Below, in pieces: positions 40,316 to 45,200 of a stretch of DNA of 64,000 nt. The notes below the pieces were generated by a model. It was not told where the DNA came from. It ran no database searches and was given only the letters and a program-made list of their open reading frames with translations. This stretch comes from Pseudomonadota bacterium (GTDB taxonomy: Bacteria > Pseudomonadota > Gammaproteobacteria > Steroidobacterales > JBCBZW01): positions 186,001 to 250,000 of the forward strand of contig JBCCWS010000002.1 of assembly GCA_039193195.1 (NCBI GenBank). The letters run 5' to 3'. The position numbers were made by a program, and so were the translations under genes. Every line of letters starts with the position of its first letter. The first letter of the stretch is position 1.

Positions 40316-42145
40316 CTATAGCCCGTAGAAAAGCGTCAGCACCACCGACAGGGTCAACCAGATGATTAAGGTCAGCGGCACACCCACGCGCAGGAAGTCA
40401 CTGAACTTGTATCCCCCGGCACTCAGTACTAGCAGATTGGTCTGGTAGCCGATAGGGGTGGCATAGCTCATATTGGCACCGAAGAGAACCGCTAGTACGA
40501 AGGGCTGAATCGGGGCACCTAGGCTTTGCGCAATGCCAATCGCAATCGGGGTACCAATAACCGCAGCGGCGTTGTTCGAGACCACGTTTGTGATCACAGC
40601 CATTAGCAGCATCAAGCCACTCATCACGATGGGAATGGGCAGATTCTGCGTCAGCCCCACGTAGGAGTCTGCGAGGAAGGCAGCTCCCCCCGTTGCCATC
40701 AGGGCCGAGCCTAAGGCGAGGCTCACTACGATCACCAGGATGACGGGCGCACTCAGGGCGGAACTCAGGTCGCGCCAAGTCAAGCATCCTGTCAGGATCA
40801 TCAACGCCACACCGCTGATTGAGCTAATGGAGATCGGCATGATGTCGAGAGCCGCGGAGCCGATAACCGCAAGCATGATGCCCAACGCCCAGCGGGCGCG
40901 TTCGGTGTACGGCAGGTCCGTGGTCCCGTCCAAGACGAGCATGTCGTTTGAACGTTTCAGCTCATTGATTGCATCACGCGTGCCTTGCACGAGGATGACA
41001 TCGCCCGCGCGCAGGCGTACGTCGCGCAATTCGCTGTTGCCCGTAGGATCGCCTTTGGCTCGGTGGATCGCCAGCGGCATCAAGCGGTACCGTGTGGAGA
41101 AGCGCGTCCGCCGCAAGGTGCGATGGTGCAGGGGCGAGCCGCGGGTCACCACCACCTCGGCTAGCTGCTGACCAACCGCAGCGAGTTGCTCGTCGCCCGT
41201 GATGGGCTGCTCGGGGTCGTCTGCGCTATGCAGCCGTGTACCCAGGACACGCTCAAACTCCTTCAGTCGCTCCGGCGTATCGTTCACCACCAGACGATCA
41301 CCCGCCGTGATCTGCACGGAGGGCAGACGGGTGAGGTAGAGATTCTCACCGCGCTGGATGCGCTCGATCTTGATGTTATCTTCCGTACGCTTACGCACCT
41401 CAGCGAGCGTGCGCCCGTTGGCGAAGCTGTCCTCGCTAACGTGGAGCAGAGCGGTGAACACTCGCGGCGACGTATCGCTCAGCAGGGCCTGACGCTCGGG
41501 GAGGAGGCGCGGTGCCACCTGCCAAAGGTAGATAACTCCTACGGTTCCAGCGATGAGCGCTGGCAGCGTGAAGTCGAACATGCCCATGCGCGGCTGCCCC
41601 AGATCCTGCGCGATGGAGACCACCAAAAGGTTAGTGGAGGTGCCGATGGTGGTCGCCATGCCACCGAGGAGCGTCGCCAAGCCCATCGGCATCAAGACGC
41701 CGGACGCAGGCTTTCGAGTCTGGATCGATACGCTGACGAGAATCGGCAGCAACATCACGACGATCGGCGTGTTGTTGACGAAGGCACTGAGTAGGGCACC
41801 TAGCGTGAGCGTTAGGAGAAGGGACATGACCGGATTGCGCTGCCACCCCTGGGACAGGGCGACGGCAAGCGGTTTGAGCGCCCCGGTGGTCTCCAAGCCC
41901 TTGCCCACGATCATCAGGGCGCAGATCGTGATGAGTGCCTCGTGTCCGAAACCCGTAAGAAAGTCCGCAGGCGCGAGGGGTACACCCTGAGGCGCGTAGG
42001 GGAAGAACTGAAACAGCAGCACCAGCAAAACCAGGATGGTCAGGCAGGAGGTTTCCAGGGGCAGGCGATCGCGGGAGAAAAGCACTAGCGCACCCAGCGT
42101 GAGCAGCATGACGATGAGGCCGTGCAGATCGGGCAGGGAAGCCAT
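40316..42145 (-). CDS. SLC13/DASS-family permease with two TrkA-C (RCK_C) domains
   Basis: The 609-residue membrane protein has N-terminal and C-terminal transmembrane halves (AFVNNTPIVVMLLPI and VVSNNAAAVIGTPIA carry the repeated family signature). Two cytosolic RCK_C domains, about residues 215-305 and 320-400 (LTRLPSVQITAGDRLVV; VRLRAGDVILVQGTRD), lie between the halves. This layout is that of the sodium/sulfate or dicarboxylate-type transporters with regulatory TrkA-C domains. The substrate is not known. Confidence 0.9.
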   Translation of the reverse strand: MASLPDLHGLIVMLLTLGALVLFSRDRLPLETSCLTILVLLVLLFQFFPYAPQGVPLAPADFLTGFGHEALITICALMIVGKGLETTGALKPLAVALSQGWQRNPVMSLLLTLTLGALLSAFVNNTPIVVMLLPILVSVSIQTRKPASGVLMPMGLATLLGGMATTIGTSTNLLVVSIAQDLGQPRMGMFDFTLPALIAGTVGVIYLWQVAPRLLPERQALLSDTSPRVFTALLHVSEDSFANGRTLAEVRKRTEDNIKIERIQRGENLYLTRLPSVQITAGDRLVVNDTPERLKEFERVLGTRLHSADDPEQPITGDEQLAAVGQQLAEVVVTRGSPLHHRTLRRTRFSTRYRLMPLAIHRAKGDPTGNSELRDVRLRAGDVILVQGTRDAINELKRSNDMLVLDGTTDLPYTERARWALGIMLAVIGSAALDIMPISISSISGVALMILTGCLTWRDLSSALSAPVILVIVVSLALGSALMATGGAAFLADSYVGLTQNLPIPIVMSGLMLLMAVITNVVSNNAAAVIGTPIAIGIAQSLGAPIQPFVLAVLFGANMSYATPIGYQTNLLVLSAGGYKFSDFLRVGVPLTLIIWLTLSVVLTLFYGL

Positions 42146-42399: not shown

Positions 42400-42443
42400 G
42401 GGTAATCGGCCCCGGGCAGGCGGGCAAGGGCGGGCGATTACCC
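42400..42443 (-). other. Hairpin at the 3' end of the flhC-like gene
   Basis: GGGTAATCG (42400-42408) and CGATTACCC (42435-42443) are perfect 9-bp arms that include the flhC-like stop codon (TTA at 42438-42440). There is no T tract, so it is a possible weak terminator or mRNA 3' stabiliser. The rest of the 292-base gap 42146-42437 shows small hairpins (for example CGAACGC-GAA-GCGTTCG near 42325) and no supported gene. Confidence 0.45.
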
Positions 42444-43064
42444 CGCCTGAGCGCGGCTCGCCGCGTAGCGCCGGCGGGTGGCTAGGTCTTGCACTGATTT
42501 TGCTGAGCGCCGCCGCTGCACGCCCTTGAGGCGGCAGCAGGGGCAGTGCCCCTCATCCATCTCCATGACGTGATGGACGTACACGCCCGCGCAGGCGGCA
42601 CAAGCCATCAGCACCAGCTCATCACCGCGCTCGAGGGCGCGGTAGAGGCCCCACGCGCGCTCGAAACAGAAATGCGGAGTACGGTGAAGGGAGCGGTAAG
42701 TCTCGTAGGCAAGGCAGAAACTAAAGCCGAGTTTCAGAGGATTCTCGCGCTCGGCATCCTCGAAGCGGCCGTCTGACGCCAACGACAGCACATCGCTCGC
42801 CAGCAGCAACATCGCTAGGGACGTGGCTTCGCACTGAAAGGTGGCATTGCGCACGTAGATCGCCGTGCGCGAAGGCGACTTGCCGCGCTGGCGCTTGACC
42901 GCCTGAGCATCGTCCTTGAAGTAGCGAGCGTAGAGCCGGCGAATTCGATCGTCCGACAGCCCCGTACAGAATTTGATCGTGCACGTGCGCGCCTCGTGGC
43001 CGATCATGCGCAAGGCTAATTCGGTGCGTTGGCACTCATCCATGTAGCCGGCAATCTGCTCCAT
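42438..43064 (-). CDS. FlhC-like transcriptional regulator
   Basis: The 208-residue protein resembles FlhC along its length. The N-terminal helical region TELALRMIGHEARTCTIK followed by LSDDRIRRLYARYFKD matches the FlhC HTH region, and AFERAW-like FCFERAWGLYRALERGDEL is present. The C-terminal zinc site has CAAC (Cys 155, 158) and CPCC (Cys 174, 177). The start at 43064 has AAGGAGA at 7 bases; a longer frame to 43172 would run through the palindromic operator. FlhC normally acts as FlhD4C2 to switch on flagella, but no flagellar gene is in the window. Its partner is probably the divergent FlhD-like gene. Confidence 0.8.
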   Translation of the reverse strand: MEQIAGYMDECQRTELALRMIGHEARTCTIKFCTGLSDDRIRRLYARYFKDDAQAVKRQRGKSPSRTAIYVRNATFQCEATSLAMLLLASDVLSLASDGRFEDAERENPLKLGFSFCLAYETYRSLHRTPHFCFERAWGLYRALERGDELVLMACAACAGVYVHHVMEMDEGHCPCCRLKGVQRRRSAKSVQDLATRRRYAASRAQAG

Positions 43065-43131
43065 CCTCGTCTCCTTATCGGTGGCCTGCCATGCAGGTGT
43101 ACCGCAAGAATCATGGTGCATTGCACACGGA

Positions 43132-43194
43132 AATTGCGCCATTTGGATCAGAAATGGCGCCTCCGCTTTCATAATTGATCCATTTGGCGCAATT
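43132..43194. promoter_or_regulatory. Nested palindromic operator between the flhC-like and flhD-like genes
   Basis: Two 19-base arms (43132-43150 and 43176-43194) form an imperfect inverted repeat with core GCGCCATTTGGATC / GATCCATTTGGCGC. Inside, GCGCCATTT (43136-43144) and AAATGGCGC (43152-43160) form a perfect inverted repeat over 7 bases. So the half-site GCGCCATTT or a close variant occurs three times. The sites lie in the 246-base divergent promoter region, suited to joint control of both genes. Confidence 0.65.
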
Positions 43195-43310
43195 ATGGCG
43201 GTGCAGGCCGCCTGCGGACAATGCCTAGAATCGAGTCAGAGCAGGCAAGACGCGGCAAACCCCAGGCGTCTGCGCGATCGGGTGGGAACGCTGCGAAGGG
43301 AGAACTGGAG

Positions 43311-43997
43311 ATGGAAGTCCTCAACAGCTCAGCGCCGCCAGGCCCTTGGCGATACAGCCCACCGGACGCCCGAGCGCGGCGTGAACTCGCGGCCCTGAAC
43401 GGCCGGTTTTTGGAAGTCATTCGGCTGTTGGCACTGGCGCCCGCACACGCAGCCGATAGCGTCGAGCACAACGCCCACGTGTTGGGGCTCGAGGCCACAG
43501 TCGCGGAACGCGTCGCGCATCTCCCGGTGGCTCGCCGTGATGAGTTGGCGGCATGCCCGTACGCGCTGGTAGGCGTGAGCTTGGGGGATCTCGAATTCTG
43601 GCGCCAAGTGTCGAGCCCGAACGCCCGCCCAACGAGCTATCGGCGCGCCCTCGGGGGTAGCAGCTTCTCCCCAGCTCACGCCTCGGCACTGCGCGATGCC
43701 CTGTTTCTCACGCTTGCCTACGCTTGGCACCTGGCCCAAACGTCTCCCACGAGCGCGCGCTGGATGCTGGGCGCCTGCCCGGAGTCACTCGCTCTGCTAC
43801 GCGCCCTGCCCTTCAGCACCCTCGGACAGATCGCCGATGAGTGTCCGGGCCTGCTCCGAGCCCGCCTAGCCGACCAGAAGCGCTTTTGGCACGATCTGGT
43901 AAGCGCCGTCGCTAGCGGTACGCACCAACGCCGCTTCGCAGCGGTTTCCCTCGGTTTGCAGCTATCAGCGGCAGCAGGCGCACCGCGCACACGGTGA
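43311..43997 (+). CDS. Tandem-duplicated FlhD-like protein (putative partner of the FlhC-like regulator)
   Basis: The 228-residue product is made of two related helical halves (about 24-102 and 126-198). The landmarks LG, LP, CP and FW occur at 58/71/82/96 in the first half and 153/166/178/192 in the second. Each half aligns by eye with the FlhD core: LG at the start of the helix, Ala/Leu spacing, L/I-A eight residues after LP, and a closing LV/LL. FlhD itself is a single such unit. ATG 43311 is chosen for its AAGGGAGA site; a longer frame to 43221 exists. It is divergent from the flhC-like gene. The FlhD assignment is my inference. Confidence 0.62.
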   Translation: MEVLNSSAPPGPWRYSPPDARARRELAALNGRFLEVIRLLALAPAHAADSVEHNAHVLGLEATVAERVAHLPVARRDELAACPYALVGVSLGDLEFWRQVSSPNARPTSYRRALGGSSFSPAHASALRDALFLTLAYAWHLAQTSPTSARWMLGACPESLALLRALPFSTLGQIADECPGLLRARLADQKRFWHDLVSAVASGTHQRRFAAVSLGLQLSAAAGAPRTR

Positions 43998-44006
43998 TTC
44001 GCCACC

Positions 44007-44136
44007 CTAGGGGGCCGCTTGGTAAACAAGGTGACGCTCAGCGAGTAGCACGGGCGCCATCGCGGCGTTGCATCGCCTTGCTGACGCTGCCCCTACGCAG
44101 ACTGAGCGCTACCTCATTTACCAAGCGGCCCACTAG
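44007..44136. repeat. Palindromic repeat element, copy B (130 bp, CTAG-bounded)
   Basis: Terminal 35-base inverted repeats (44007-44041 and 44102-44136; 30 of 35 positions pair) are the same as those of the element at 9433-9615 and again end in CTAG. The inside shares GCGGCGTTGCATCGC and GACGCTGCCCCTACGCAGA with copy A read in the opposite orientation. It lacks about 54 bases, including one inner arm and the central hairpin. The right CTAG supplies the stop codon of the dehydratase gene on the minus strand. Confidence 0.85.
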
Positions 44137-45200
44137 GCCGAAGGCTCACGCCCCTCGAGCGTAGCGGCGTAGAGCGCCGGGTCCACGTTACCGCCGCTGA
44201 TCACCGAGACGGTAACGCCGTTGTCGGTGGCCAGGGGCGGCACGGCCCCTTCTATCAGAGCTGCCGTGGCGAGCGCGCCAGAGGGCTCCACCACCAACTT
44301 GCCGTCGCGGAACAGAAGACGCATGGCCTGCAATATCGCCTGCTCCGACACGGTGACCATGTCGTGTACGAGGTTCATAACGATCGGAAAGGTGTAGCGG
44401 CCAAGGCAAGGCGTGCGAGTGCCATCGGCGATAGTCGGCGGGTTGTCGACCCAGCACAGACGCTTGCTGCGAAAGGAGCGGGTAGCGTCGTCCGCTAGGG
44501 CGGGTTCCACGCCGATTACCTGACACTCTGATTCGGTCATCGCCACGGCGATGGCTATACCCGAAAGCAAGCCACCGCCCCCAGTGCAGACGAGTATTCG
44601 CGCCACATCCAAGGGCTGCCGCAAGATCTCGAGACCCACGGTCGCCTGACCGGCAATCACATCGGGGTGGTCGTAGGGAGGAATGATCGGCAGACCTAGC
44701 TCAGCGGCAAGCTGGGTGCCGAGCGCTTCGCGACGCGTGGTGGTCGGATCGTACAGCACGATCTTCGCCCCGCGTGCCTGCGTCGCCTCGCGCTTCACCG
44801 CCGGCACGGTGGTCGGCATCACCACGGTGACCTCGACGCCGAGCATCCTCCCGGCCATGGCCAGGGCTTGGCCATGGTTGCCGGAAGAGTAGGTGAGCAC
44901 ACCGCGTGCGGCATCGCCCGCCTCCTGAAGGGCGGCGAGCGCGTTGTAGGCACCGCGAAACTTGAAGGCACCGGTGTGCTGTAGATTTTCGCACTTCAGC
45001 ACGACGCTGCCGCCGGTGTTCTCTGCGAGGCACTCGAGCGGCAACACCGGCGTCAAAAGAGCATGGCCCGCCAAGCGCTGTTCTGCTCGCCGCACGCGCT
45101 CAAACATCTCCTCTCGCTGGGCGCTGGAAAAGACCGACGAGACCTCCGGTAGCGCGGGCGGCGGACGGCTCAACCTCCGTGCACCAGCTGGCGAGCGCAT
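44133..45200 (-). CDS. Threonine/serine ammonia-lyase-like PLP enzyme
   Basis: The 355-residue fold-type II PLP enzyme has the Schiff-base Lys in TGAFKFRGAYNAL, SSGNHGQALA, the phosphate-binding loop CTGGGGLLSGIA and a C-terminal VSVISGGNVDP. There is no ACT regulatory domain, so it resembles catabolic threonine dehydratases or serine racemase-like enzymes rather than biosynthetic IlvA. The start is unclear: ATG 45200, or ATG 45107 with GAGAGGAG just before it. The stop TAG lies in the terminal CTAG of the palindromic repeat. Confidence 0.88.
   Translation of the reverse strand: MRSPAGARRLSRPPPALPEVSSVFSSAQREEMFERVRRAEQRLAGHALLTPVLPLECLAENTGGSVVLKCENLQHTGAFKFRGAYNALAALQEAGDAARGVLTYSSGNHGQALAMAGRMLGVEVTVVMPTTVPAVKREATQARGAKIVLYDPTTTRREALGTQLAAELGLPIIPPYDHPDVIAGQATVGLEILRQPLDVARILVCTGGGGLLSGIAIAVAMTESECQVIGVEPALADDATRSFRSKRLCWVDNPPTIADGTRTPCLGRYTFPIVMNLVHDMVTVSEQAILQAMRLLFRDGKLVVEPSGALATAALIEGAVPPLATDNGVTVSVISGGNVDPALYAATLEGREPSA

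Follow-up and report, generated by a model that had tools for sequence, protein, structure and literature searches.

Two divergently transcribed genes lie head to head in the window (the whole stretch of DNA that was analysed, 64,000 nucleotides): an FlhC-like gene, hereafter C, and a tandem FlhD-like gene, hereafter D. The features of the locus are as follows.

40316..42145, minus strand: SLC13/TrkA-C-like transporter gene, downstream of C (family assigned by reading the sequence)
42438..43064, minus strand: gene C, FlhC-like, 208 aa, start ATG at 43064
42534..42602, minus strand: putative zinc site of C (Cys155, Cys158, Cys174 and Cys177; zinc by analogy with FlhC)
42915..42986, minus strand: putative helix-turn-helix of C (residues 27-34 and 38-50, TGLSDDRIRxLY; helices of the AF2 model)
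43134..43151: putative operator copy 1, TTGCGCCATTTGGATCAG, with the imperfect dyad TTGnnCCAnnTGGnnCAA
43175..43192: putative operator copy 2, TTGATCCATTTGGCGCAA
43192..43221, minus strand: weak promoter-like site for C, TTGTCC-18-CATAAT (1 found, 0.3 expected)
43311..43997, plus strand: gene D, tandem FlhD-like, 228 aa, start ATG at 43311
43356..43655, plus strand: first FlhD-like unit of D (residues 16-115)
43656..43994, plus strand: second FlhD-like unit of D (residues 116-228)
44133..45200, minus strand: threonine dehydratase-like gene, beyond D (family assigned by reading the sequence)

The original prediction had placed both genes correctly, on open reading frames that are indeed present in the window (42438-43172 on the minus strand and 43221-43997 on the plus strand), but it had started them too far upstream, and both genes are shorter. 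In a genome of the same genus (locus L003), the inner ATG is the first one in either frame, and in the window the inner ATGs have good Shine-Dalgarno sequences in front of them (AGGAG ahead of 43064 for C, GGGAG ahead of 43311 for D); we therefore regard the inner ATGs as the real starts. After this correction, the gap between C and D is 246 bp long (43065-43310).

Homology and the predicted fold together show that C is an FlhC-family protein, as had been suggested from its sequence and its zinc site. First, C matches the Pfam FlhC model (PF05280) with 31-32 bits (32.1), above the cut-off of 27; an FlhC match was also obtained in Pfam for 28/28 aligned relatives of C, and a PDB sequence search returned FlhC (8j56, E 4e-6). 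Second, the AF2 model of C (pLDDT 89) superimposes on FlhC at 2.5-2.6 Å over about 150 residues and thus has the FlhC fold, with VIA Z scores of 16.2 for 8j56_C (Cupriavidus necator) and 15.4 for 2avu_E (E. coli), the next unrelated row standing at Z 7.2. Third, the four cysteines of the putative zinc site are invariant in a 12-sequence set (three of them in 28 sequences), and the helix-turn-helix region, which by analogy with FlhC would bind DNA, is the best-conserved block of the alignment. On the NCBIfam equivalog for canonical flagellar FlhC (NF009365), C scored 31.3 bits, below the cut-off of 216, and a single-protein search of the genome contigs with window C as the query gave no match.

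As for D, the landmarks of the first half recur in the second at the spacing of 95-96 residues read earlier: the offset is 95 for L58-G59/L153-G154 and L71-P72/L166-P167, and 96 for C82-P83/C178-P179 and F96-W97/F192-W193 (228-aa numbering). Using an alignment of 29 D sequences and an FlhD comparison profile made from separate genomes, hhalign matched each half on its own to FlhD (unit 1, Prob 95-97, E 3e-8 to 1e-10; unit 2, Prob 95-96, E 2e-8 to 6e-9). An FlhD-only HMM detected 86/107 D proteins at E<0.01, and found two FlhD units more than 60 aa apart in 72/107 of them, as compared with 0/1588 other open reading frames and 1/1070 shuffled sequences. In the AF2 model of D (pLDDT 87.8, pTM 0.86), unit 1 aligns with FlhD 4es4_B over residues 16-89 at 2.1 Å (VIA Z 7.0) and unit 2 with FlhD at Z 7.9-8.1 (2avu_B, Z 7.9 over residues 120-227, 104 aligned, 2.6 Å), values that are moderate and are to be read together with the sequence evidence.

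Could D be an unrelated all-helical repeat protein that resembles FlhD by convergence? Window D alone has no match in Pfam, where it stays under the gathering threshold of the FlhD model PF05247, or in NCBIfam, and only chance matches in a PDB sequence search; its Foldseek E-values are weak, and a Z of about 8 can be coincidental for helical folds. Against these points, both halves match FlhD by profile with clean controls, the Pfam FlhD model is matched by 9/29 D relatives (E<=0.1; 4e-7 for the best of them), FlhD chains fill the first five VIA rows, with the next row at Z 4.1, and the partner gene encodes an FlhC; in Foldseek too, FlhD chains have by far the highest probabilities. Convergence thus seems extremely unlikely, and profile homology with the predicted fold shows D to be a tandem FlhD. 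The duplication put forward in the original prediction is thereby confirmed, and the two outcomes that it had named as counting against it, an unrelated family for D or halves without similarity, did not arise in the profile and fold comparisons.

The model of D also bears on how its two halves are arranged. The FlhD homodimer is linked by a disulfide at Cys65 (PMC3510510). In the profile alignments, Cys65 aligns with V87 and R183 of D, the cysteine itself being not conserved. According to DSSP, strand or bridge structure is confined in the model to residues 87-88 and 183-184, which must pair with each other. From the placement of V87 and R183 at the Cys65 position and their mutual pairing, it follows that the halves of D would face each other as the chains of an FlhD dimer do; on this DSSP output and profile alignment, D very probably forms an internal FlhD dimer.

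The C and D pair is a conserved unit with its own FlhC clade, and it is strongly detected only inside the order of the window's genome. The C profile found an FlhC-like gene in 48/59 genomes of the order, and in 42/47 of the good assemblies, with one copy in most genomes; with the plus-strand protein as the query, 32/59 relatives of the order gave matches. The original prediction had called for a search for divergent pairs of flhC and double flhD in other genomes, and these are abundant. In a first set of loci, an FlhC-like gene adjoins D in 29/29 testable cases and is divergent from it in 28/29, so that the flhD-flhC operon layout is not the rule here; the sole same-strand locus of this set (L008:1465-2844) has D then C, as in flhDC. 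In a second set, comprising 80 loci kept of 260 relatives (many of them labelled Woeseiaceae), C is divergent from D in 77/80, and in 78/78 testable loci once a wrong score at L111, caused by an open frame drawn too long, is put right; at the remaining two loci C lies at a contig end. In a search of 369 genomes of the class, all strong matches fell within the same order; those outside it were weak, with no more than about 45 bits, and ordinary FlhC was among them. Phages searched at E 0.01 yielded no relative.

In the tree, the C proteins of the order group together in a clade (99/99) that is distinct from those of canonical FlhC (99/99) and AcaC (99/97); a 36-aa truncated FlhC fragment (CAN_L041), which was misplaced, was disregarded. 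We noticed small divergent FlhD-FlhC operons from other orders branching outside canonical FlhC (L036, L037, L039 and L040). One genome (G028:C1) carries two C genes (at 957610 and 2903596), of which one, like its D partner (L013), is very divergent and sits on a long branch.

The textbook view of the regulator FlhDC is that of a switch for flagella, taken over by a few conjugative elements. It is worth asking whether the pair is simply a flagellar or motility master regulator, that is an flhDC relocated and made divergent. C is present in 20/22 flagellin-positive genomes, both exceptions being 82%-complete assemblies, and the FleQ-like match of the window's genome is not beside flagellin; these facts, with the homology to FlhC and FlhD, would suit a flagellar role. 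They are outweighed by the following ones. First, 28 C-positive genomes have no flagellin, which means that the pair does not need flagella. Second, flagellin has FleQ-type genes at a distance of about 4-5.5 kb in nine flagellated relatives (G005, G007, G008, G011, G024, G036, G042, G045 and G058). Third, the C clade is separate from canonical FlhC, and none of the conserved neighbours is a flagellar gene at the loci that were read. A flagellar master regulator is thus an unlikely reading of the pair, which may still contribute to flagellar control in flagellated members. The flagellin genes of the window's genome are on another contig (C28), in agreement with the earlier remark that the pair stands away from flagellar genes.

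The gap between C and D contains two 18-bp imperfect dyads exactly 41 bp apart, with the outer and inner half-sites of copy 2 mirroring those of copy 1 around a centre at about 43163. L003 has the same layout and the same 41-bp spacing, with inner half-sites that are changed on both sides as compared with the window, and in three loci of another family (L004, L011 and L139), where the bases are different, both dyads are perfect (TTGGTCCANNTGGACCAA) and the 41-bp spacing is kept. An EM motif search of 88 gaps recovered a dyad of the ATGGTC type order-wide, in a palindrome-constrained run without a shuffled control. With their conserved layout and spacing, the paired dyads are very probably an autoregulatory operator. 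The -10 element of the weak promoter-like site for C abuts copy 2, an arrangement that, tentatively, would suit autorepression.

The genes around the pair, whose names (NudC-like, arginine synthesis and so on) come from reading the sequences, are conserved in two kinds of neighbourhood. In the clade of the window, the SLC13-type gene adjoins C at nine further loci with 54-98% identity (L003, L004, L007, L009, L011, L048, L055, L062 and L069), and the threonine dehydratase-like gene is found at six of them with 48-82% identity (L003, L004, L007, L011, L062 and L069). Downstream of C, L118, L105, L071, L052 and about 70 other loci carry NudC-like, NRDE, ArgR and ArgG genes. An ABC ATPase gene (of an ABC-2 exporter) follows D on the same strand at 61/73 loci, mostly within 100 bp. 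That the pair controls its conserved neighbours is a reasonable guess.

Does the pair act any further than that? In the 6.7-Mb genome, the dyad pattern is matched exactly at only two places, copy 2 and a site inside an open frame; allowing at most one mismatch, the pattern occurs at 13 places, versus 7 for the reversed control. The genome-wide search revealed no convincing perfect or near-perfect operator copies in promoters outside the locus, the places examined being within open frames. Exact twin dyads confined to the C/D locus, together with the ABC ATPase gene after D and the SLC13 gene after C, would be expected of a purely local regulator, one that autoregulates and controls just its neighbours, namely the SLC13-type transporter and the ABC-2 exporter in the operon of D. 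We give this restricted role a little under an even chance. Against it, the pair is present almost throughout the order in two different neighbourhoods, which suggests a role independent of any single neighbour, and degenerate sites of the FlhDC type could escape a strict pattern search.

Another origin to be considered is that the pair is a relic of a conjugative element, similar to AcaCD or BisDC, that was domesticated or is still mobile. Its nearest architecture is indeed that of AcaCD of the IncC plasmids, with a tandem D, and related fusions occur on conjugative plasmids. Such a relic is hard to reconcile with chromosomal housekeeping neighbours that are conserved in about 70/80 loci with no transfer genes seen next door, with the single copy in most genomes, and with an order-wide clade distinct from that of AcaC; we regard it as very unlikely.

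From all these data, we consider it likely that C and D make up a two-gene, chromosomal, non-flagellar regulator of the FlhDC superfamily, a (D-D)2:C2 complex that binds the dyads and controls both genes as well as others. In this proposal, C would supply the DNA-binding part with its helix-turn-helix and zinc site; the two FlhD units of one D chain would pair like both chains of the FlhD homodimer; and two chains each of D and C would together restore a ring similar to FlhD4C2. The complex would then bind the paired dyads between the divergent genes to control C and D, and it would control some further genes, most plausibly including the conserved neighbours. Complex formation, stoichiometry, DNA binding and autoregulation of the pair are inferred here. 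A C/D complex would agree with two findings: AcaD, likewise a tandem FlhD, co-purifies with AcaC as an activator complex (PMC4207636), and there are plasmid proteins in which FlhD-like units and FlhC share a single chain. The regulation of other genes is inferred as well, since no convincing second target was found.

As the pair is present in most examined members of the order, flagellated or not, it looks like an overlooked non-flagellar core regulator. A bolder version, that it is a core transcription regulator of the whole order (including Woeseiaceae), acting through a covalent FlhD dimer and a ring on two dyads separated by about four turns of the helix to run a global non-flagellar programme, is somewhat short of probable. 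In any case, most examined members of the order, including flagellin-less ones, carry a further chromosomal branch of FlhDC, with a D subunit that has no family name. The tandem-FlhD architecture fits the 2:1 ratio of FlhD to FlhC and predicts the build of AcaCD. As a single-chain FlhD dimer, D could also serve structural studies of how FlhDC-type rings bind DNA, which has been described as unclear (PMC3510510). Such an order-wide regulator, taken with AcaCD, would mean that the control of flagella is just one use of the FlhDC superfamily among others.

Several known systems resemble the pair in part. Similarly to flhDC, which forms FlhD4C2, it has the FlhC fold, the four-cysteine site, the FlhD fold (in both halves of D) and a putative inverted-repeat DNA site. 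It differs from the FlhD family, and from the flhDC operon with its single FlhD unit, by two units in one chain, divergent genes, the lack of a tie to flagellin, and V87 and R183 in place of the dimer-linking Cys65.

Non-flagellar activators of the FlhDC type have been described, namely AcaCD (PMC4207636), the FlhDC-like genes of SGI1 (PMC4605294) and BisDC of ICEclc (PMC7423338). Similarly to the pair, BisDC is FlhDC-like and non-flagellar, and it is an autoregulatory activator (PMC7423338); it differs in that BisD is ParB-like. BisC has been reported to contain DUF2857 (PMC7423338). We found that DUF2857 (PF11198; L154-L179) begins with one FlhD-like unit; the segment after it is a different one and, judged by eye, looks like the start of FlhC. 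As its likeness to FlhD covers the first ~85 residues only, DUF2857 was rejected as a tandem FlhD. The PF11198 model also matches a canonical FlhD (G164, 9e-6, below the cut-off).

Plasmid proteins of about 390 aa from Cupriavidus and Burkholderia, called 'FlhC family' (e.g. WP_058698187.1), are FlhD-FlhC fusions, in which a weak FlhD unit (1-106) and a clear one (107-215) precede FlhC. They occur on 48 plasmids, including megaplasmids (e.g. L151:1805-2980), and differ from the pair in being single polypeptides, plasmid-borne and in a separate FlhC clade. Viral contigs searched with the plasmid fusion gave no relative, and the partner of FlhC on a Providencia plasmid has no likeness to FlhD.

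AcaCD, the master activator of the IncA/IncC conjugative plasmids and a co-purifying heteromeric complex with weak homology to FlhC and FlhD and an AcaD of 22.8 kDa (PMC4207636), comes closest. AcaD of an E. coli IncC plasmid (L192:678-1286, annotated as 'hypothetical protein') proved to be a tandem FlhD as well (42 bits), with units at 17-87 and 107-168; an alignment of its family with window D spans 173 columns. Both systems thus combine an FlhC-family subunit with a tandem-FlhD partner and are non-flagellar, the heteromeric complex being that of AcaCD. They differ in that acaD-acaC is a plasmid operon for transfer genes and AcaC forms its own clade, whereas the window pair is chromosomal and divergent, has a twin-dyad operator and stands outside any plasmid transfer context. 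In the open-access literature that was searched, we found no paper on a tandem FlhD, AcaD included, and none joining FlhDC with this order. Since AcaD is tandem and the plasmid fusions also combine FlhD units with FlhC, the order is not alone in having a duplicated FlhD next to FlhC; with non-flagellar FlhDC activators already known, the 'new type of master regulator' of the original prediction goes too far. What is new is the chromosomal, divergent, order-core form of a duplicated FlhD beside FlhC.
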